Assembly: GCF_907165195.1 (NCBI RefSeq) | Contig: NZ_OU015584.1 | Location: 2,800,978 to 2,864,977, forward strand | DNA: 64,000 nucleotides | From: Parvicella tangerina | GTDB taxonomy: Bacteria; Bacteroidota; Bacteroidia; Flavobacteriales_D; Parvicellaceae | Reading direction: 5' to 3' | Shown: positions 3,520 through 38,597 of the stretch, piece by piece | How positions within the stretch are numbered: position 1 is the first letter of the stretch | Layout of the letters: every line of letters starts with the position of its first letter | Made by a program: the position numbers and the translations under genes | The notes under the pieces: model-generated | What the model was told of the DNA's origin: nothing | Databases searched by the model: none | What the model saw: only the letters and a program-made list of their open reading frames with translations

Positions 3520-6311
<2,792 letters not shown>

Positions 6312-6389
6312 TAAGTAACAATTTATTTTGATTTGATTCTGATTAAATTCAATATGTCAAAGAACATTTCCTTGTAATAGTAAGGATAG

Positions 6390-6463
6390 TGGAGAATATC
6401 GGAGTCGAACCGATGACCTCCTGCGTGCAAGGCAGGCGCTCTAGCCAGCTGAGCTAATTCCCC
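6390..6463 (-). tRNA. tRNA-Ala (anticodon TGC)
   Basis: The minus strand begins GGGGAATTAGCTCAGCTGG, has anticodon arm GCCTTGCACGC (TGC) and T-arm GGTTCGACTCC. The acceptor stem pairs GGGGAAT with ATTCTCC with one G-T pair. CCA is not encoded. It sits in the 16S-23S spacer next to 23S. Confidence 0.95.
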
Positions 6464-6473
6464 AAAAGCATTG

Positions 6474-6547
6474 TAGTCCCTCGCAGATTTGAACTGCGGA
6501 CCTCTACATTATCAGTGTAGCGCTCTAACCAACTGAGCTAAGGGACT
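6474..6547 (-). tRNA. tRNA-Ile (anticodon GAT)
   Basis: The minus strand begins AGTCCCTTAGCTCAGTTGG with anticodon loop CTGATAA (GAT) and T-arm AGTTCAAATCT. Acceptor arms AGTCCCT and AGGGACT pair fully. CCA is not encoded. The Ile-Ala pair in the spacer is the common bacterial arrangement. Confidence 0.95.
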
Positions 6548-6664
6548 CTGTACCTTGCTCGGTGTTGATTATAAGTCTCTTCACTGAGCCTTTTGGAAAT
6601 ATTATAAAGAAGTAAGAAGAAGCAATAGTATCTAGTTAAAGATAAAGTTCCGAAACCTCTCTAA

Positions 6665-8188
<1,524 letters not shown>

Positions 8189-8790: not shown

Positions 8791-9474
8791 TTAAGGAGTT
8801 GATACCGAGACAGGCAGTATCTTACCATTGTAAAATCTAGATGTCACCGTGACAAACTCAGCGATATACTCAGCCATTTCAGCAGCCTGAATAGGCGCCT
8901 CATAACCAGGAAAAGCACTCTCAAGCATTTCTGTTTGAACAGCACCCAAAGCCAATGCATTACATCTAATGTTTCGTTCCTTCAATTCTTCAGCCATGCA
9001 CTCTGAGAGAATACTCAGTGCACCTTTACTAGAACTATAAGCTGCCAGACCAGGAAATTTTGCCGAACCTTGCACTCCTCCCATACTTGATATATTGCAA
9101 ACAGAAGCATCATCACTTAGGTATGGAATCAAATGACGCACAATTCTCATTGGAGCAATGACGTTTACTTTGAACTGATTAAAGATTTCTTCATCAGAGT
9201 GATCCAAGATACTTTTGTTAACCAGATATCCTGCATTATTGACAACATGGTCAATTTTGAGATTTTTCGCATGCTCCACCAATGGAGATAGATCTTCTGT
9301 TATATCCATTCGTATAACGGCTAAATGATCGTTCTTCTGAGCAAGTAACTCTAAGTCAGTTGTTGATCTTGAAACTGCGATAACCGAATGTCCTTGAGAC
9401 AACAGTCTTTTGGTCAACGCAAAACCAATTCCCTTAGAAGCTCCAGTTATTAATATTCTTTTCGGTGCAATCAC
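8791..9474 (-). CDS. Short-chain dehydrogenase/reductase (SDR)
   Basis: A 227-residue classical SDR, expected to be a cytoplasmic NAD(P)H-dependent oxidoreductase. It has the nucleotide-binding motif TGASKGIG (10-17), NNAG (79-82), and the catalytic set Ser129/130, Tyr146 and Lys150 (YSSSK). The length is slightly short for the family but all core motifs are present. The substrate cannot be told from sequence. It stands alone between the rrn promoters and the DUF983 gene, with no sign of an operon. Confidence 0.88.
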   Translation of the reverse strand: MIAPKRILITGASKGIGFALTKRLLSQGHSVIAVSRSTTDLELLAQKNDHLAVIRMDITEDLSPLVEHAKNLKIDHVVNNAGYLVNKSILDHSDEEIFNQFKVNVIAPMRIVRHLIPYLSDDASVCNISSMGGVQGSAKFPGLAAYSSSKGALSILSECMAEELKERNIRCNALALGAVQTEMLESAFPGYEAPIQAAEMAEYIAEFVTVTSRFYNGKILPVSVSTP

Positions 9475-9559
9475 GATACAAACGTAATATTATAAGTTCA
9501 TCGTTTTGCATCTTCAGCGTTCAGATTATTAATGTTGATTTGTTAATTCTACCAACTCA

Positions 9560-10016: not shown

Positions 10017-10535
10017 TTACGTCAATAATAGCTGGTATAGTAACTCCGATTCCCATCCGGAATCCGTCTTAAACCATTCCTTTCTCTCTCCTACTCGACT
10101 AAACCCTACACTCTCGAATAACTCTAAACTAATTTGATTAGACGCATGCATTGAACAATAGAGCTGATTCAGCTTTAATACACTCTTGGCATATTTCAAT
10201 AAGATAAGCAAGCTATCCTTGGCAATACCTTTATTTAGAAATTCTTTATCGGAAACAACAATTCCTACCCCTGCTCTTCTGTGTATTTGGTTGTAATCAA
10301 ATAAATCTATCATACCCACTGGGGTTCCGGTGCGAATATGTTCTATAATGAACCTGTATTGTCCCTGCGAATGTAAATCATGAACACTTTCAGCATATTT
10401 TTGGAGTGTATGTCTCGTGAACGGAATTAAAGTCTCACTCACCTGCCAAAGAGAGGTATCATTCTCGGCCATAAACAGGTAATCCACATCTTCTGGCTCG
10501 ACTCCTCTTAACTTTATTCTATCGTTTTCTAACAT
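10017..10535 (-). CDS. GNAT N-acetyltransferase (RimJ/RimL type)
   Basis: A 172-residue single-domain GNAT protein of the RimJ/RimL/SpeG-like group, expected to move an acetyl group from acetyl-CoA to an amine. The order fits: IKLRGVEPEDVDYLF at the start, VGMIDLFDYN in beta 4, the GVGIVVSDKEFLNKGIAKDS acetyl-CoA loop (a Q/RxxGxG-like turn), and NQISLELFESVGF near the end. The substrate is unknown. It overlaps the upstream gene by 7 bases, so it probably sits in an operon with dapF and the unknown gene between them. Confidence 0.85.
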   Translation of the reverse strand: MLENDRIKLRGVEPEDVDYLFMAENDTSLWQVSETLIPFTRHTLQKYAESVHDLHSQGQYRFIIEHIRTGTPVGMIDLFDYNQIHRRAGVGIVVSDKEFLNKGIAKDSLLILLKYAKSVLKLNQLYCSMHASNQISLELFESVGFSRVGERKEWFKTDSGWESELLYQLLLT

Positions 10536-11038
10536 GGTCTTTTCGCATCTAATATAGCTTTATCAATGTCTTCTTGCGTATATTTCTTTAGTGAAATACT
10601 ACCGTTGGAAATGAATTTTTCACAATTAAGGTGTTCAACCTTCTGTATATAACCTTCTTTAAGTAATAAATCAAGTAGATCAAACAAGTACTTTACCTCC
10701 TTTATTGCTTCGTTCGATCTACCCATCATTTCTTTGATCGGGTTTAAACACGATTCACCTTTTGACAGGTTACTTCCTATAAAAAACTGATCTGGATCTA
10801 AGGAGAGCCCATTCAGTTCGATGACAATCGTAGGCAATCCTTTTCGATTTATGGAACTAATCACTTTGTTAAAGTCAAATTTCCTCTTCACTCCTTGAGA
10901 GCTTTTTGAGTAATAGTATTGATTCTGAACATAACCAATATGTGGTGGTATTTTGTCGACACCAAACAAAACTAAATAATTACCAGTCATTTCATCAGAG
11001 TGAAAATCCGAAATATTTGACAAGGTATAGTTAGACAT
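10529..11038 (-). CDS. Unknown protein between dapF and GNAT
   Basis: A 169-residue soluble protein I do not recognise. It has no signal peptide and no membrane segment. It begins MSNYTLSNISDFHSDEMTGN and has a lysine/acidic C-terminal half with a predicted helical stretch (EAIKEVKYLFDLLDLLLKEGY). It overlaps dapF by 8 bases upstream and the GNAT gene by 7 bases downstream, so the three are almost certainly co-translated. The tight overlaps show that it is a real gene. No function can be assigned. Confidence 0.8.
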   Translation of the reverse strand: MSNYTLSNISDFHSDEMTGNYLVLFGVDKIPPHIGYVQNQYYYSKSSQGVKRKFDFNKVISSINRKGLPTIVIELNGLSLDPDQFFIGSNLSKGESCLNPIKEMMGRSNEAIKEVKYLFDLLDLLLKEGYIQKVEHLNCEKFISNGSISLKKYTQEDIDKAILDAKRPC

Positions 11039-11816
11039 TTACTTCTCCTTTAAACACAAATTTAGCTGGTCCGGTCAATTTAATGTCTCTAGCCTGACTA
11101 CTTTTCACCTCTCCAACCTCCACTGATAAATTACCTCCTTTAGTCAAAACGTTAATCACACCACTCTCTTTCTTATTCTTCAGTAATTGCGAAATAGCGC
11201 ATGCCGTCACTCCTGTTCCACACGCCAGTGTTTCATTCTCAACTCCTCTTTCATAGGTTCTAACTCTGATGTCAGCATCACTTATTACATCAATTATATT
11301 AACATTGGTTCCCACTTGAGCGAACCGATCATTATAGCGAATGGATCTTGCGAGTGGTAGTAGGTCAACATTGTCTATATTCTCGACATACAGATTATAA
11401 TGTGGAGATCCTGTATCTATGAAATGGTACTCTTCTGTTAGCTCCATATTCGAGACATCAAACATGCTTAATTCTATAGCATTTTCGTTTACTACCCTAG
11501 CCGTATTACGTCCATGAATACTGTTAAACGTACAGTCCTTTCCAACCATTCCCATGTGAAATGCAAACATTACTGCGCATCGACTTCCATTCCCACAGAA
11601 TGATTGGGATCCATCCGGATTATAGAATTCCATGTAGAAATCAAAATCATCATCCTCTTGAATAAGTATCAGTCCATCACTTCCAATCCCAAAATGTCGT
11701 TTACACAAAGTACTCACCACCTCTTTTCTATTCTTCTTAGGAAATGCATTCGTTCGATTATCTAGAATAATAAAATCATTTCCAGCCCCGTGATATTTGA
11801 AAAACTCTAACTCCAT
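11031..11816 (-). CDS. dapF: Diaminopimelate epimerase
   Basis: Converts LL-diaminopimelate to the meso form, the direct precursor of peptidoglycan cross-links and of lysine. The 261 residues start with the typical FFKYHGAGNDFIILDN. Both catalytic cysteines are in place: Cys74 in SFCGNGSRC and Cys199 in ETLACGTGVTA, with the GSPH motif (about 136-139) between them. It is first in a three-gene overlapping set with an unknown protein and a GNAT, and is divergent from the HtrA gene. Confidence 0.95.
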   Translation of the reverse strand: MELEFFKYHGAGNDFIILDNRTNAFPKKNRKEVVSTLCKRHFGIGSDGLILIQEDDDFDFYMEFYNPDGSQSFCGNGSRCAVMFAFHMGMVGKDCTFNSIHGRNTARVVNENAIELSMFDVSNMELTEEYHFIDTGSPHYNLYVENIDNVDLLPLARSIRYNDRFAQVGTNVNIIDVISDADIRVRTYERGVENETLACGTGVTACAISQLLKNKKESGVINVLTKGGNLSVEVGEVKSSQARDIKLTGPAKFVFKGEVNV

Positions 11817-11934
11817 TGATTAACATTTTTTAACTCTAACCCCTTGTAACGTAGTGGTTTTTAAACGTTATCACTACTAACTTTGAACATATACAAAGTA
11901 AATCATTCAATTCATATAACTAAAATTAAATACC

Positions 11935-13089
11935 ATGAAATCATTGACATCAGTTTTTATCAGCAGTATTCTTGGGGCTTCAATAGCGCTTGGTATTTAT
12001 CATGGCGTTTCGAAGGAAAACACAAAAATCATTGTCAAGGAAACGGCTAGTGACTCCTCTTCAACTTCTGAAAATAGGCCATACCAGCTTACGAACTACA
12101 ATAATAATAGTTTGCCGTTGAATGTTGATTTTACAGAGGCAGCTTCTAATTCATTGGATGCAGTAGTCCATATCAACACAAGAATTACCGTTGGACAGGT
12201 TAATGACCCCGTTTACCGACTTTTTTACGGAAATGCTAAAATCGAGCAGAAAGCAAGTGGATCGGGTGTTGTGATCTCTCCAGAAGGTTATATAGTTACG
12301 AATAATCATGTTGTAGCTGACGCTAACAGCATTGAAGTAACCTTAAACAACTCTGAAACATATAAAGCCGAGCTAATAGGTACTGATCCTTCTACCGACC
12401 TTGCTTTGCTTAAGGTAAATGCTAAGAACCTTCATACTATTCAATTTGCGAACAGTGATGACGTAAAGGTTGGAGAATGGGCGCTAGCAGTTGGAAATCC
12501 GTTCAATCTCACGAGTACGGTTACAGCGGGAATTGTAAGTGCTAAAGCAAGGAACATTCACATTCTGCAAGGAAATTACGAAAAAGAAATCTTTCCAATC
12601 GAGTCATTTATTCAGACTGATGCAGCCGTGAACCCAGGTAATAGTGGTGGAGCTCTTGTAAACTCTCGAGGAGAGTTAATTGGAATCAACACTGCCATCG
12701 CATCAAAAACAGGATCTTACAGTGGGTATAGTTTTGCTATTCCTTCGAACCTTGTTAAAAAAGTAGCTGGTGACCTTGCTAAGTATGGTTCTGTTCAGAG
12801 AGGATTCATAGGTGTGAACCTGAAGGAAATCAATACTGATCTACTTCAATCTTATGACTTACCTAATCTTGATGGTGTATTAATTGCAGGTGTTATTCCC
12901 GAGAGTGGAGCGGATGATGCTGGAATTGTCCCAGGAGATGTTGTTCTTGCGGTTGGCGACATCGAAGTACACAACATTCCAGGACTGCAAGAACAAATAG
13001 GAAAGTACAGTCCAGGAGACAGCGTTCCATTATTATTAAGAAGGGGTAACAAAACCATACATAAAGAAGTTCAGCTAAAGAAGATATGA
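11935..13089 (+). CDS. HtrA/DegP-type periplasmic serine protease
   Basis: An envelope quality-control protease of 384 residues. The N-terminus has a hydrophobic segment (about 6-22) that can be a signal peptide or a membrane anchor, as in DegS. The trypsin-like domain carries His125 (NNHVV), Asp155 (TDLALLKV) and Ser237 (NPGNSGGAL), so the triad is complete. One PDZ domain follows (about 285-380); DegP would have two. It could be DegS-like or a one-PDZ DegP/DegQ. The gene is divergent from dapF; the shared intergenic region has an inverted repeat GTAGTG-N15-CACTAC (11851-11877) of unknown role. Confidence 0.92.
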   Translation: MKSLTSVFISSILGASIALGIYHGVSKENTKIIVKETASDSSSTSENRPYQLTNYNNNSLPLNVDFTEAASNSLDAVVHINTRITVGQVNDPVYRLFYGNAKIEQKASGSGVVISPEGYIVTNNHVVADANSIEVTLNNSETYKAELIGTDPSTDLALLKVNAKNLHTIQFANSDDVKVGEWALAVGNPFNLTSTVTAGIVSAKARNIHILQGNYEKEIFPIESFIQTDAAVNPGNSGGALVNSRGELIGINTAIASKTGSYSGYSFAIPSNLVKKVAGDLAKYGSVQRGFIGVNLKEINTDLLQSYDLPNLDGVLIAGVIPESGADDAGIVPGDVVLAVGDIEVHNIPGLQEQIGKYSPGDSVPLLLRRGNKTIHKEVQLKKI

Positions 13090-33687: not shown

Positions 33688-33743
33688 GACTATAACCATA
33701 GTTGTTTTGAATGATATAGGGTTTATGTCTACGTTGCGGTGGC
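33688..33743 (+). mobile_element. Possible attC-like site at left end of the cassette array
   Basis: GACTATAACC (33688-33697) and GGTTTATGTC (33720-33729) can pair with one extrahelical T across a 22-base loop, and R'-like GTTGCGGTGGC follows at 33733-33743. The left R'' arm is not clear, and the loop does not match the other sites, so this is the least certain member. Confidence 0.35.
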
Positions 33744-33781
33744 ATTCCAAAAAAATAATATCAGAATTAAAATAATCTGTT

Positions 33782-33805
33782 TACATTTGTATCCAAGTGA
33801 ATACA
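33782..33805 (+). promoter_or_regulatory. Promoter and operator of the toxin-antitoxin pair
   Basis: -7 TACATTTG (33782-33789) overlaps the inverted repeat TGTAT-N8-ATACA (33788-33805). A repressor bound there would block the promoter, as usual for HigA-type autoregulation. No clear -33 box is seen. Confidence 0.5.
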
Positions 33806-33812
33806 ACTACGT

Positions 33813-34112
33813 ATGTATATAATTGAAAAGACTCCTGAATTTGATAAGTGGTTGAGGAAACTCAAGGACAGAAGAGCTAAAGCTAAAATCTTATTCAGGA
33901 TTCAAAGAATTGAGGAGCAAGGAAATTTTGGAGACTGTCAACCAATAGGAGAAGGACTAAGCGAATTGAGAATTCACTATGCAAAAGGTTACCGAGTATA
34001 TATTAAAGAATATAGCGGAACCATTGTAATTCTTCTGAATGGAGGTGATAAATCAACTCAGTCAAAAGATATTGCAAAAGCAAAAGATTTATGGACGAAA
34101 TACAAGAAATAA
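33813..34112 (+). CDS. RelE/HigB-like toxin (putative addiction module killer)
   Basis: A 99-residue basic protein of the Gp49-like/HigB group in the RelE/ParE superfamily, probably an mRNA-cutting toxin. It shows TPEFDKWLRKLKDRRAKAKI, RIQRIEEQGNFGD, GLSELRIHYAKGYRVYI and the typical end ILLNGGDKSTQSKDIAKAKD. The antitoxin starts inside its stop codon (TAATG), so the order is toxin first, as in higBA. It is the first cassette of the array; toxin-antitoxin pairs commonly stabilise integron arrays. Confidence 0.88.
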   Translation: MYIIEKTPEFDKWLRKLKDRRAKAKILFRIQRIEEQGNFGDCQPIGEGLSELRIHYAKGYRVYIKEYSGTIVILLNGGDKSTQSKDIAKAKDLWTKYKK

Positions 34113-34393
34113 TGAGCACTACAAAATTTAATATAGCAGATTATTTAGATGACAATGAAATGATTGTTGAGTATTTAAACAACATTTTGGAAGAAGGCGA
34201 TTCTTCTGATATTATTTCCGCAATTGGTCACGTTGCGAAAGCAATTGGAATGACTAAAATTGCTGAAGATACAGGTATGAGCCGACCTAGCTTATACAAA
34301 GCACTTTCTGAAAACTCTAAACCTCAGTTTGAAACTATTCTCAAAGTTCTCAGAGCCATCGGAGGTAATATACAGATCAACCCAGCAGCATAA
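34112..34393 (+). CDS. HTH antitoxin of the addiction module
   Basis: A 93-residue helix-turn-helix antitoxin of the family that pairs with Gp49-like toxins. It begins MSTTKFNIADYLDDNEMIV, and the HTH is at MTKIAEDTGMSRPSLYKALS. I use the ATG overlapping the toxin stop (TAATG), not the upstream start seven codons earlier, as this matches homologues. It should bind the toxin and repress the palindrome upstream of the toxin. The stop lies 8 bases before the R'' box of the next attC-like site. Confidence 0.88.
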   Translation: MSTTKFNIADYLDDNEMIVEYLNNILEEGDSSDIISAIGHVAKAIGMTKIAEDTGMSRPSLYKALSENSKPQFETILKVLRAIGGNIQINPAA

Positions 34394-34401
34394 AAAATAA
34401 C

Positions 34402-34475
34402 GCCACACAACAATGAGTAAAAAAGCATACCTTGCCTAATCAAACCGTAACGCTTTTTACTCTAAGCGTTGTGGC
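34402..34475 (+). mobile_element. attC-like site A
   Basis: R'' GCCACACAAC (34402-34411), L'' GAGTAAAAAAGC (34415-34426), a 25-base loop, L' GCTTTTTACTC (34452-34462) and R' GTTGTGGC (34468-34475). L arms pair fully with one extrahelical A. Total 74 bp, within the attC range. The loop contains CCTTGCCTAATCAAACCGT. Confidence 0.7.
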
Positions 34476-34487
34476 TAATTTCGAAGA

Positions 34488-34992
34488 ATGAAAAACATAC
34501 TGCTAATTATCATTGCTATTTTCTTGGTTGCTTGTCAACATGGGATTACAGGTTATAATATTGAGGAATTTGAATCCAAAATTGAGTCTGTAGAAAATTC
34601 CAATATTCAGAATAAAAAACTAGAAGACGGATGGTACGCACCATCACAAGAGAAAAATGATTTTATGAAAATTGATCCAAAAACATCAATGAAAACTTAC
34701 ATTGATCCTAGACCTATAATTTTACCCGAAAACATCAGTAGTTTTGAAGAATTTGAAAATTACGAAGGTTCTAAGGGGTTTAGCAATATACTTTGAGGAA
34801 GCGGGAATTGAGGCTTGGGCTCGAGCTACTGACAAACTTACTGGTTCAAGTATAATTTTCATCTTAGACAATGAAATCTTAACCGTGCAGCAAGTCAACT
34901 CGAAAATTACAAATGGTGCTTCAGCATTTTGGAAATCCGATTTGGACGATCAAGATTGGAAAAGAATAATGAAAATGGTAAAAAATAGCTAA
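34488..34992 (+). pseudogene. Frameshifted lipoprotein with SecD P1-like domain
   Basis: Two overlapping frames form one protein. The first (from 34488) has a lipoprotein signal ending FLVACQ and runs to FEEFENYEGSKG. The second continues GLAIYFEEAGIEAWARATDK and ends DDQDWKRIMKMVKNS at 34992. The break is at GGGGTTT (34775-34781); one base must be skipped, a +1 shift. The second part (IIFILDNEILTVQQVNSKIT) resembles the SecD/SecDF periplasmic P1 head. The rejoined protein would have about 167 residues. A true mutation or a sequence error is likelier than programmed shifting, since no -1 slippery site fits. The gene is in cassette 2. Confidence 0.6.
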
Positions 34993-34998
34993 TCAAAA

Positions 34999-35011
34999 CA
35001 TTGGCAACAAG
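34999..35011 (+). repeat. Direct repeat of an attC R''-like segment
   Basis: TTGGCAACAAGG here recurs as TTGGCAACAAAGG at 35927-35939, where it is the R'' side of site B. No L', loop or R' follows here. It may be the scar of an attC lost by deletion between two former cassettes. Confidence 0.4.
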
Positions 35012-35015
35012 GAAT

Positions 35016-35921
35016 ATGAAAATAAAATTTATAATACCACTTTTGATAATTATTCAAAGCTGTTCTTCTAGCACAACAAATGAAGAACACATGAATAAAA
35101 CTATAGAAGCGGACACTGTAGGTGTTCAATTAAATTATTTAGAAAGCTTTCATAATAGGAAAACCGTGAATGATTTAGATGCTTCTTTGACTGAATATAT
35201 TTTATCAAATCCAAATAGACCAGACTCAATTCATACTACAATTTATTTATTACCATTTGGCAATATGAAGCCAGAAGTAGAACAAATTATATCAAATGAG
35301 ATTGATTATCTAGAAACATTCTTTCAAATGCCTGTAAAAATACTACCTCGAATTACATTTGATGAAGTAAAACAAAATGCGCAAATAAAAACAAGATTTG
35401 TCCCCGATTCAGACTATGGATATTATGAAAAGATGAAAGGTGGAGCCGAAAATTTACGGGAACAAATTGAAGCATCTTCTTTTATGAATAAATATATGAT
35501 TGATCAGAAGCCCGAAGATGCTGTTGCCGTTTTAGGAATCACTGAACATGATATTTATAATTCATCGTATAATTTTTTATTTGGAAGTTCATCTACTAAG
35601 AATGGAGTTGGATTAATCTCTACTTTTAGATTAATCGACTATGGAAAACAAACAAAATATAACATCAGAAAAGTAGTTTCTAAGCAAATTGTAAATCTGT
35701 TTTCCATTCGAAATGTCAAAGACTATGAGTGTCTTCTAAATTTTCACAATAGTAAAGAAGAATTAGAGCTGGGCGAATTTAAATTATCGCCAAGAGCCCT
35801 TGAAAAATTCAAATACAATATTGGATTTGACTACAATAAAAGATTTAAAGAATTAGAGCAGATTTGGTTAGAAGAAGGGAATAAAAGCCTAAGCGAATAT
35901 TATCAAAAGTGTCAAAAATAA
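35016..35921 (+). CDS. Archaemetzincin-like lipoprotein lacking the zinc site
   Basis: A 301-residue lipoprotein (signal ending in lipobox IIQSC, Cys16). It follows the archaemetzincin (M54) plan: IYLLPFGNMKPEVEQIIS, MPVKILPRI, then DAVAVLGITEHDIYNSSYNF with FLFGSSSTKNGVGLISTFRL. Where the family has HExxHxxGxxH, this protein has VVSKQIVNLFSIRN (about 220-233), with neither the histidines nor the glutamate. Most cysteines of the structural zinc knuckle are also gone (only the one in DYEC remains). I infer a non-catalytic homologue. The start is the ATG before the signal peptide; the longer frame begins at a TTG inside a repeat. Confidence 0.65.
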   Translation: MKIKFIIPLLIIIQSCSSSTTNEEHMNKTIEADTVGVQLNYLESFHNRKTVNDLDASLTEYILSNPNRPDSIHTTIYLLPFGNMKPEVEQIISNEIDYLETFFQMPVKILPRITFDEVKQNAQIKTRFVPDSDYGYYEKMKGGAENLREQIEASSFMNKYMIDQKPEDAVAVLGITEHDIYNSSYNFLFGSSSTKNGVGLISTFRLIDYGKQTKYNIRKVVSKQIVNLFSIRNVKDYECLLNFHNSKEELELGEFKLSPRALEKFKYNIGFDYNKRFKELEQIWLEEGNKSLSEYYQKCQK

Positions 35922-35926
35922 ACCAG

Positions 35927-36000
35927 TTGGCAACAAAGGCTAAAACACAAAGTCCTAGCCTACCAAACTGTTTCTTCGTATTTTAACTGCAACGTTGTAG
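35927..36000 (+). mobile_element. attC-like site B
   Basis: R'' TTGGCAAC (35927-35934), L'' GGCTAAAACACAAAG (35938-35952), loop, L' CTTCGTATTTTAACTG (35974-35989), R' GTTGTAG (35994-36000). On the top strand the L arms have mismatches; on the bottom strand these become G-T pairs, giving about 14 continuous pairs. Bottom-strand folding is what integron integrases use. The loop contains CCTAGCCTACCAAACTGTTT. Confidence 0.65.
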
Positions 36001-36012
36001 GTGATTTGAAAA

Positions 36013-36762
36013 ATGACAATTTTAGAGATATTAAATACTACTGAACATAGACCTTGGAAAATTCCAACGGGCAAATGGAAATTCTATCAAGAGTGGAATA
36101 ATGTAGTATTTCTTCATTATCAGGTTGACTTGATTGAATTGAAAAAATTTGTTCCTGAAGAACTGGAAGTTGACCTCTTTGAAGGTAAACCATGGATCTC
36201 AGTAGTTGCCTTCACAATGGAAAAGATAAGACCTAAAAACTTACCCAGTTTTCCACCAATATCAGATTTTGACGAAATCAACATTCGGACTTATGTAAAG
36301 TCACATGGTAAAACTGGAGTTTACTTCTTGAGTATCGAAGGTGGGAAAAATTTATCCTGCAAAGTCGCAAAAGGAATTTCAGAACTTCCATATCGATTTT
36401 CAAAGATAAAAAGGACTGAGCATAAGTATCGACCACAGAATTCGGAACTCAACGACCGCCTTGATATTGAGTATAAAATAGGAAAAGAACAAACTGTGAA
36501 ATCCGAATTGGACAAATGGTTGACTGAGAGATATGCTCTATTTCAAGATACTGGCGACTCGATTAACGAATTTGAAATACACCATTTGGAATGGCCTATA
36601 AATGAAATTGAACTACAGAGTTTGGATATTAATTATCCAAGGTTTGTAAAATTGATCAATGAGAAGCCGAGCAAAACACATTATTCCAGAGGCGTACAAG
36701 TTATTGCATGGGGGAAAATAAAAAAAGAAAAAACTAGCTACAACAACACTTATAGGCAATAG
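36013..36762 (+). CDS. DUF2071 (YqjF-like) protein
   Basis: A 249-residue soluble protein of the DUF2071/YqjF family, whose function is unknown. It shows WNNVVFLHYQVDLIELKKFV, PEELEVDLFEGKPWISVVAF, INIRTYVKSHGKTGVYFLSI and a C-terminal ARGVQVIAW-like SRGVQVIAWG. The last residues (TSYNNTYRQ) are encoded by the R'' and L'' arms of site C, so the reading frame ends inside the recombination site, a common feature of integron cassettes. The gene starts 12 bases after the R' box of site B. Confidence 0.85.
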   Translation: MTILEILNTTEHRPWKIPTGKWKFYQEWNNVVFLHYQVDLIELKKFVPEELEVDLFEGKPWISVVAFTMEKIRPKNLPSFPPISDFDEINIRTYVKSHGKTGVYFLSIEGGKNLSCKVAKGISELPYRFSKIKRTEHKYRPQNSELNDRLDIEYKIGKEQTVKSELDKWLTERYALFQDTGDSINEFEIHHLEWPINEIELQSLDINYPRFVKLINEKPSKTHYSRGVQVIAWGKIKKEKTSYNNTYRQ

Positions 36763-36803
36763 CGCCCTGCGTGACGCTAACGCGCATAGTCCAAATGTTG
36801 GGT
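36737..36803 (+). mobile_element. attC-like site C
   Basis: R'' GCTACAAC (36737-36744) and R' GTTGGGT (36797-36803) flank partly paired arms ending in GCGC (about 36771-36774 and 36782-36785). Arms are less regular and the loop does not carry the shared sequence of sites A, B and D. The R'' is an exact complement of the start of its own cassette (GTTGTAG at 35994). Confidence 0.5.
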
Positions 36804-36827
36804 GTCATCTAAAAAAATCGAAACAGT

Positions 36828-37160
36828 TTGCTGAACCTAAAAGAGACATATCGAAACTCTAGGAACAAAGAATATATTATTCTTACAGCTATCTTAATAT
36901 TGACAGTTGCAATTGCAATAATCTTTTATTTTGGAGAAGTCTCGAGAAACAATACTGAAATTGAGGAATTGAAACAGATTCCATTATCGCATATTCACGA
37001 CAACATCAATGGTGCGAAATATGTCAAATCAAAAAAAATTGTAGAATTGCTCGAGGAGAACAAAAGAACCAGCCTTTGGTATATGTCTTTCTTTAAGATA
37101 GTCGCCTATGTCAATTTTGGAGCGTTCCTAATAGTTCTGCTTTATAAATGGAAAAATTGA
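36828..37160 (+). CDS. Small two-helix membrane protein
   Basis: A 110-residue protein of no family I recognise. It has two membrane segments, near residues 16-36 (EYIILTAILILTVAIAIIFY) and near 86-106 (FFKIVAYVNFGAFLIVLLY), with a charged region between them that would lie on one side of the membrane. The start codon is TTG (first codons TTG CTG AAC), chosen because no ATG precedes the first helix. It is the only gene in its cassette, which begins at 36797 and ends at site D. Confidence 0.6.
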   Translation: MLNLKETYRNSRNKEYIILTAILILTVAIAIIFYFGEVSRNNTEIEELKQIPLSHIHDNINGAKYVKSKKIVELLEENKRTSLWYMSFFKIVAYVNFGAFLIVLLYKWKN

Positions 37161-37161
37161 C

Positions 37162-37237
37162 GACACCTAGCATTGACTAAAATTAAACAGCCTTGCCTAC
37201 CAAACCGTTTCTGCTTATCTTAGTCGAAGCGTTATAC
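37162..37237 (+). mobile_element. attC-like site D
   Basis: R'' GACACCTAGC (37162-37171), L'' GACTAAAATTAAACAG (37175-37190), loop of 20 (37191-37210), L' CTGCTTATCTTAGTC (37211-37225), R' GTTATAC (37231-37237). On the bottom strand the L arms give 15 pairs, two of them G-T, with a single extrahelical base. The loop reads CCTTGCCTACCAAACCGTTT, almost as in sites A and B. This is the clearest site of the set. Confidence 0.72.
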
Positions 37238-37248
37238 GCAATGACAAA

Positions 37249-37994
37249 ATGAGCAGAAAGGATCAAAAAGAACAAGAAAAAAAGACATTGAACTGTTCCT
37301 TTCCCTAAGTGGCATAAAGCACAATTCGTTTGATCTTGACTGTGAAAAACCCGACTGTGACTTTAAGATAAGTAATAAGAATATTGGAATTGAGGTTACA
37401 GAATTTGTTCGATCCAAGGAGTATTGTTCAAAGGTTAGATCTGTAAACGCAACGCTGGACCGAATCAGAAGAGAAACAAAAGCTGAAATAAAAGAATTTA
37501 CTGACATTAATTTGACTCTTAACTTCTCACAACACTCTCCTCCTCCGAGAAAAATCAATATGAATGATCGTTTAAACATAATTAACTTTTTAGTTAATCA
37601 TGTGAAAAAACAGGAAATTCATGATAAACTTGGAAAAGACCTGTTTCACATCGAATATGAATATTCTAAGGACGAAAACGAATTCATTGAATCGGTCAGA
37701 GTTTCAACCTATCCAAATAAGCAAACACTAGATGTCACTGAAAATAAATTCTTCATGACTGGGGTAATTCCTAAAGCAGATATTGATGATATTATTAATG
37801 AAAAAGAGCCCAAAATGGACTTCACAAGAAATGATGAAACTTGGTTATTAATGGTTGTTGCCGAAACTGAATATTCGTCAGGCATTATCAAACCAGATGT
37901 ATTGGAATATAAGTTTGATTCTTGTCTTTTTGACAAGATATTTATGCTAGAACGATTTTCAAAAAATCTTTATGAGTTAAATAAATGCGTATAA
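37249..37994 (+). pseudogene. Frameshifted nuclease-like gene (PD-(D/E)XK-like)
   Basis: The ATG at 37249 opens MSRKDQKEQEKK and runs into a seven-A tract (37277-37283), after which this frame soon stops. The next frame continues without a stop as DIELFLSLSGIKHNSFDLDC to the end at 37994. With one more A the two join into about 248 residues. The joined protein carries EKPDCDFKISNKNIGIEVTE, which looks like the PD...ExxE core of a restriction-type nuclease fold. It could be a dead gene, a sequence error, or rescued by transcriptional slippage on the A-run. It is the last gene of the array and abuts the half-site GCGTATAAC. Confidence 0.6.
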
Positions 37995-37995
37995 C
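37987..37995 (+). mobile_element. Terminal attC half-site (R'' only)
   Basis: GCGTATAAC is the exact complement of GTTATACGC at the start of this cassette (37231-37239). No paired L arms or R' box are visible after it, so the array seems to end in a truncated or decayed attC. Confidence 0.45.
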
Positions 37996-38165
37996 ACCAC
38001 GTACAAAACACTGCCACGATTGCTATTTCGAAGTGTAAATAATTAAAGATGCCGACAAAAGTCAGAAAAAAACATTCATTCAAACGAAGCCCGACTCGAC
38101 TCCTCCCAATTTGCATTTGACAGTTATCCTGCTTAAATTAAGCATAAATCAAAAAGAGATCAATT

Positions 38166-38597
38166 ATGTCAGCAAGAAAAGCAAAAGCCACTTGGAGTGG
38201 CACTTTAAAAGAAGGGAATGGAAAAATGAAATTCAACAACTATGACGGACCGTTTACCTTCGCTTCCCGTTTTGAGGACGGTGAAGGAACAAACCCCGAA
38301 GAATTGGTTGGAGCTGCTCACGCTGGTTGCTATTCTATGTTTCTTTCCGCACTGCTAAGCGCAGAAGAATTAAGTCCGAAAAGTATAGAAACAAATGCCA
38401 CTGTAACTCTTGAAAAAGATGATATAGGACCTAACATTACCGCCATTAATTTAAACTGTACCGTAACTTGTGAAGGGTTAACACAAGAAAAATTTGAGGA
38501 GTTAGCATCGGCAGCTAAAGATAAGTGTCCGATATCAAGACTTTATGCCGGTGGTACAGCAACAATTCATTTAGATGCTAAATTAACGTCTGCATAA
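38166..38597 (+). CDS. OsmC family peroxiredoxin
   Basis: A 143-residue OsmC-type thiol peroxidase that reduces organic hydroperoxides. The two reactive cysteines are present in AAHAGCYSMFLSALL (Cys57) and KDKCPISRLYAGG (about Cys122). The whole sequence fits OsmC more than Ohr (for example the start ARKAKATWSGTLKEGNGKM and the FASRFEDGEGTNPEELVGAA block). It stands alone after the cassette array and marks the return to ordinary chromosomal genes. Confidence 0.92.
   Translation: MSARKAKATWSGTLKEGNGKMKFNNYDGPFTFASRFEDGEGTNPEELVGAAHAGCYSMFLSALLSAEELSPKSIETNATVTLEKDDIGPNITAINLNCTVTCEGLTQEKFEELASAAKDKCPISRLYAGGTATIHLDAKLTSA

Follow-up and report, generated by a model that had tools for sequence, protein, structure and literature searches.

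The stretch of DNA analysed here (the window, 64,000 nucleotides, positions 2800978-2864977 of the complete 3.98 Mb chromosome of Parvicella tangerina) carries a short row of genes separated by attC-like sites, and it raises the question of whether these genes are integron cassettes and, if so, of which enzyme would have moved them. A sequence-only reading of the locus had claimed that the two ends of each of three cassettes are complementary, as circular excision would require, and our re-examination agrees with it. The cassette at 35994 starts with GTTGTAG and ends with the exact complement over 7 positions, CTACAAC (36738-36744), or 8/10 when the comparison is extended; the start of the cassette at 37231, GTTATACGC, matches 37987-37995 at 9/9 positions and in fact at 10/10; and the start of the cassette at 36797, GTTGGGTGTC, matches GACACCTAGC at 37162-37171 at 8/10. 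Because both mismatches of this last pair fall in the R'' core region (AAC to AGC, and the preceding C to T), we regard that half-site as damaged. When ends were swapped among the three cassettes, 4-6/10 positions matched. By themselves these cassettes are modest evidence, and it is the related arrays described below that settle the matter and confirm the covariation.

Table. Features of the window array (window coordinates)
Feature	Position	Strand	Details
Toxin-antitoxin cassette	33733-34467	+	Start GTTGCGGTGGC, end CGCCACACAAC; ends pair only with an indel; left boundary tentative
Gp49/HigB-like toxin	33813-34112	+	Pfam PF05973, 3.9e-8
HI1420-type antidote	34091-34393	+	Pfam PF21716, 4.2e-44
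attC-like site	34401-34474	+	R'' CGCCACACAAC, AAT, L'' GAGTAAAAA ... L' TTTTTACTC, TAAGC, R' GTTGTGG; site scan L score 20, spacers 3/5
Remnant, about two cassettes fused	34468-35993	+	Lipoprotein-like ORF 34488-34992 (frameshift) and ORF 35001-35921
attC-like site	35923-36000	+	GCCTACCAAACYGTTTCT common to the site at 37171-37230 and to one at genome position 2132207
DUF2071 cassette	35994-36796	+	Start GTTGTAGGTGATTT; end R'' 36731-36744 AAACTAGCTACAAC
DUF2071 (COG2071) gene	36013-36762	+	PF09844, 3.3e-56
attC-like site	36738-36803	+	R'' CTACAAC to R' GTTGGGT
Small membrane-protein cassette	36797-37230	+	ORF 36828-37160; start GTTGGGTGTCATC, end GACGACACCTAGC
attC-like site	37171-37237	+	GACTAAAAT ... 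CTTAGTC, GAAGC, R' GTTATAC
Cassette with frameshifted ORF	37231-37998	+	Frameshift near 37290, open to 37994; start GTTATACGCAATGA, end R'' 37982-37995 TAAATGCGTATAAC
Truncated last site	37993-38165	+	R'' alone, no L'/R' found

Toxin-antitoxin pairs, of which the HigB/HigA-like pair at 33813-34393 is an example, are common stabilising content of chromosomal integrons. The closest homologue of the DUF2071 gene, with 77% identity and located in another genome of the class, also lies in a cassette, with arms (GTTGTAGCCAATTT / reverse complement GTTTTAGCCAGTTT) that match each other and are different from those of the window cassette; DUF2071 homologues at 64% identity or less were not found in cassettes.

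In related arrays, consecutive sites were delimited from the pairing of their L arms and from sequence context, and the variable R bases were left out of this step and kept for testing. Chaining GTT/AAC arms alone had proved too permissive, with equally good chains on both strands and at unrelated loci, and sites were therefore defined by L-arm pairing; scanning for L arms with no requirement for the AACAA and C-GTT context returned many false sites. With sites so defined, 44 of 61 cassettes (61 pairs of consecutive sites) agreed at 6/6 variable positions, against a mean of 1.15 and a maximum of 7 in 20,000 shuffles, and the agreement lies within the cassette rather than across the site, as had been claimed for the window, since pairs taken across the site average 2.52/6. 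These results also bear on the possibility that the ends are the inverted repeats of some other mobile element, such as small transposons or MITEs, and not those of integron cassettes. Although the cassette ends are indeed inverted repeats of about 14 bp, the ends of a transposon are fixed per family, whereas here the repeat differs from one cassette to the next while the two ends of each agree; moreover, the elements stand head-to-tail with one shared junction each, and the junctions fold as L''/L' hairpins with a strand bias. We thus find this explanation extremely unlikely, and continue to treat the units as integron cassettes.

Complementary ends are already a known hallmark of integrons and are not in themselves new, as in canonical integrons cassette ends are complementary over 9-11 nt (Bouvier 2009, PMC2727003). 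The anatomy of the arms is a different matter. In a set of 44 cassettes, nearly all of which were selected on positions 1-9 only, pairing at these positions was 98-100%; position 11 had A opposite C in 77% of cassettes, and positions 12-14 paired again (89, 86 and 73%). The signature is also present in the window cassette at 36797-37230, whose R'' core is damaged (AGC for AAC). An A/C pair is a mismatch on the top strand and a G.T wobble on the bottom strand only, and the extensions of the L arm were likewise skewed (A/C 23 vs G/T 2). Upon folding, the bottom strand was the more stable in 107 of 116 reconstituted sites (p about 3e-19); the comparison of stability between circle and integrated forms is, on the other hand, partly built in by the way cassettes were selected. 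Bottom-strand folding is known for canonical attC (PMC2727003), and the wobble together with the strand bias is what selection for bottom-strand folding would be expected to produce. Canonical control arrays, taken from other classes of the phylum, showed 11 bp of complementarity that then stops, and the position-11 signature was absent from them. Because of this, the complementary ends are a hallmark shared with integrons in general, and the wobble pattern is particular to the type found in Bacteroidia.

The search for an enzyme was conducted in the same chromosome, where sites were sought in selected stretches and through targeted searches. A profile search of the genome returned no TIGR02249 match within the window range, and the attI core ACCACTAGTGG is absent from the window beyond chance. 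A complete system does exist 1.08 Mb from the window, with a tyrosine recombinase, an attI-like site that is a palindrome, and genes interspersed with attC-like sites. At the head of this third array is the best integron-integrase (TIGR02249) match of the genome, at 3916718-3917515; the recombinase is followed directly by the palindrome ACAACCACTAGTGGCTGTT and then by cassettes with matching ends, one of which is an exact tandem duplication. A second array, reached through the motif common to two of the window sites, lies at 2.13 Mb, and its cassettes have the ends GTTGTGGCAC/GTGCCACAAC, GTTAGGCTCC/GAGCCTAAC, and GTTGGGCACA/TGTGCCCAAT. Because a copy of the third array's palindrome stands at its head after the final codons of the recombinase gene, the rest of which is missing (positions 3540-3602 of the 2.13 Mb stretch), the second array probably once had an integrase of its own and would now be a decapitated integron. 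The same stretch contains two near-identical ORF-less group II introns on the minus strand (Rfam RF02001 and RF01998; about 8817-9500 and 11663-12400), located at the R'' side of attC-like sites and reminiscent of the group II introns that target attC, as well as a transposase-like insertion in or beside an attC-like site (about 4870-6060).

An overlooked IntI acting in trans on what would be a canonical integron was considered at this point, given that the sites have the integron layout and that elsewhere in the phylum canonical IntI is frequent (105/395 genomes phylum-wide exceed the cut-off), in arrays that also have complementary ends. In this complete genome, however, TIGR02249 finds its best match in the new recombinase, whose 204.6 bits fall short of the cut-off of 265; a canonical IntI above the cut-off is present in a single one of the 295 genomes of the class, the new recombinase heads the arrays, and the end signatures differ from the canonical ones. 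Such an enzyme is in our opinion very improbable, and the idea is already largely refuted. As for the window array, its site-like junctions number at least four and no integrase lies nearby, which places it within the definition of a CALIN (at least two attC sites and no integrase nearby), and we are confident that it is a short, integrase-less remnant of this type, derived from an integron-like cassette system of Bacteroidota. The fused remnant starts with GTTGTGGCTAA, which has no matching end, and contains an R''-like GTTGGCAAC at 35926-35934, which has no matching start; the site at 36738-36803 folds weakly (bottom strand, -11.2 kcal/mol), and the array stops before an OsmC gene at 38166-38597. 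The damaged R'' at 37171, the frameshifted genes (34488-34992 and near 37290), the boundary lost near 35000 and the incomplete last site suggest, as far as the sequence can tell, that the array is a fossil. It is perhaps dead, because an R'' is damaged and no integrase is close by, and excision of its cassettes at present appears doubtful.

The recombinase that heads the complete array is not an IntI in the accepted sense. Its best NCBIfam match is NF040815 (217.6 bits, cut-off 220), a family named 'site-specific tyrosine recombinase/integron integrase', and its alignment to IntI4 (PDB 2a3v) has a gap over most of residues 180-245. The spacing from KxxKxR to HxLRH is 65-66 aa in 58/58 members of its family vs 107 aa in 28/28 canonical IntI, and the 41-42-residue IntI-specific domain is missing from all 58 measured members, which is the reason why we do not regard the recombinase as a canonical IntI. 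That additional domain, near patch III, defines IntI according to Messier and Roy (2001, as cited in PMC9668308); it has been called necessary for integron recombination, and is the search criterion of the main surveys and tools (PMC9668308, PMC2426708; tool: PMC9024848). The insertion was reported as 'not fully conserved' in an integron-like subgroup by a study that also termed it essential (PMC8138268). A structure modelled for a family member from Maribacter (mean pLDDT 81) had XerA and IntI4 as its best matches. In a quick tree, which is unrooted and has long branches, canonical IntI formed one clade (SH-aLRT 100) with the family as a grade beside it, and IntI and the family together were set apart from the Xer proteins of the genome (100). 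Members were found in 148 of the 295 sampled genomes of the class (Bacteroidia); by class, canonical IntI and the family seem to be mutually exclusive. IntegronFinder 2.0 reported very few complete integrons in Bacteroidetes (PMC9024848), and our search, which covered the open-access literature, came upon no previous account of integrons in Flavobacteriia or Bacteroidia.

Relatives of the recombinase were studied at 46 loci from named, mostly Bacteroidota contigs, and in further genomes. Directly 3' of most family genes is an inverted repeat, and after it come 6-10 nt and GTT; the best arm of the repeat reaches at least 8 after 39% of genes vs 1.6% of random 60-mers. In canonical integrons the primary attachment site attI adjoins the integrase gene, and in most loci the palindrome and GTT do so here, which makes them a candidate attI on sequence grounds. 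What follows appears to be an array of cassettes separated by R''/L''/L'/R' sites with a putative GTT crossover, and the density of sites on the coding strand downstream of the recombinase is 0.30/kb vs 0.04-0.08/kb in other regions and strands, or, with a stricter scan, 0.109/kb, compared with 0.011/kb for the other strand and 0.008/kb around Xer loci. Signs of movement are also seen. One cassette (97.6% identity over 1,059 nt) is found at attI in two genomes with different flanking sequences, and the homology starts exactly at GTT and stops just after the CC|GTTAGC of the next site; a Kordia cassette occupies the second place of one array and the first place of a different one, and here too homology begins at GTT. 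The view that the ends reflect an integron is supported by all of these lines together: covariation within cassettes, the R''-L''...L'-R' layout, a dedicated integrase with an attI-like site in the genome, and context that changes at GTT.

Among first cassettes adjacent to the integrase, 38/58 had at least 9 contiguous complementary nucleotides vs 11.5% for swapped arms; at the other 20 loci no such cassette was found, possibly because the search was limited, the contig ended, the array had decayed, or the integrase serves a different purpose. These members outside detectable arrays, along with the fact that the enzymatic role of the recombinase is a predicted one, would agree with the recombinase being an unrelated neighbour, for example that of a transposon, placed beside arrays made by another enzyme. 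The association, however, holds across many genera and always on the same strand, with a palindromic attI-like site between the gene and the first cassette; the arms of first cassettes match their own array, and the Xer loci of the P. tangerina genome have no such sites. A chance neighbour is accordingly unlikely, and we favor the recombinase as the enzyme of the arrays.

Insertions were also noticed in comparable arrays. In Maribacter litopenaei, an element of ~370 nt has three copies downstream of the integrase, each just before the GTT of a different attC; it begins with CGATGATGTCGA and ends with GCGCGGC|GTTG, as if it targeted the crossover point, and has no Rfam match. Annotated IS110-family transposases are present in arrays on Chryseobacterium and Rufibacter plasmids (stretch positions 10104-11105 and 12704-12864), and resemble the known IS1111/IS110 elements that target attC. 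Many draft contigs stop within some hundreds of bases past the integrase, which is what assembly breaks at repeated attC sites would produce, and arrays are probably undercounted in draft genomes.

A search of plasmids with the recombinase led to Acinetobacter records, matched at 54.6% identity. There, the 'xerD' that directly precedes tet(X3) or tet(X5) belongs to the family in truncated form (plasmid stretch positions 5353 and 4034), and the attI-like palindrome ATATACGCCATTTGGCGTAT and GTTATGTGCCATTTT lie between it and the resistance gene. In the Myroides plasmid p63039 (stretch 6001-7328), tet(X2) starts with GTTATGTGCCATTTT as well, after a different site; its cassette ends with AAAACGGCACATAAC, after which a 20-bp hairpin site leads to the next GTT, and the two ends form ten pairs, have A/C at position 11, and then pair again. 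Judging from this sequence, tet(X2) is here a complete cassette of the Bacteroidia type, between two attC-like sites, and the cassettes of this integron type appear to include tet(X), a tigecycline-resistance gene. The linkage of xerD and tet(X) in Acinetobacter and Empedobacter has been published without an integron explanation and with the role of xerD left open (PMC7494873, PMC7473080). We consider it fairly probable, as a whole, that half of Bacteroidia carry an unrecognised class of integron without the IntI-specific domain, that tet(X) is one of its cassettes, and that the tet(X3)/tet(X5) regions of Acinetobacter are pieces of it, namely the integrase tail, attI and the first cassette.

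Taken together, our data make it very likely that an integron-like cassette system run by a tyrosine recombinase without the IntI-specific domain is widespread in Bacteroidota. A complete copy consists of the recombinase gene, the attI-like palindrome directly after it on the same strand, and tandem cassettes, each of which starts with GTT, ends with NNNNNNNAAC as the reverse complement of its own start, and continues into a hairpin region (L''...L'). A cassette would be excised as a circle through recombination at G^TT, and the circle would join the two ends of the cassette into one attC, whose single bottom strand would fold into a long hairpin; the recombinase would then bind this hairpin and insert the cassette at attI or at another attC. 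The architecture, the covariation within cassettes, the bottom-strand bias, the GTT boundaries, the association with the recombinase and the distribution are the parts of this scheme that sequence comparison shows, and from them we infer catalysis, strand use, the circles and the family recombinase as the active enzyme. If this is indeed a working integron, the search criterion in use has concealed a large store of mobile genes across an entire bacterial class, and the origin of IntI becomes testable. The link to tet(X) offers a concrete answer to why 'xerD' adjoins this resistance gene of last resort, and with it a means of monitoring the escape of further genes from Bacteroidota.

In comparison with known systems, the arrays resemble canonical integrons, including the chromosomal ones of other classes of the phylum, in their tandem cassettes in one orientation, their R''-L''...L'-R' attC sites, a crossover that would fit G^TT, cassette ends that pair over about 11 bp, hairpins biased toward the bottom strand, and toxin-antitoxin cassettes. 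They differ from them in that the Bacteroidia integrase lacks the 41-42-aa IntI domain and has an N-terminal extension of about 100 aa, that attI is at the 3' end of the integrase gene, on the cassette strand and with a palindrome, that the end arms consist of 9-10 bp, the fixed A/C and 3-4 bp more, and that they occur in Bacteroidia, a class with almost no canonical IntI. The window array shares with a CALIN the presence of several attC-like sites in the absence of a neighbouring integrase, but these attC-like sites belong to the new type. The recombinase is similar in fold and overall sequence to simple tyrosine recombinases of the XerA/Xer type (NF040815, PDB 5hxy, 4a8e); unlike these, its family heads cassette arrays, and the unrooted quick tree places it beside IntI and not with the Xer proteins of its own genome. 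Finally, the 'xerD'-tet(X) modules of Acinetobacter and Empedobacter share with the arrays the truncated family member (54.6% identity) followed by the attI-like palindrome and GTTATGTGCCATTTT, although no integron was reported in these modules as published.
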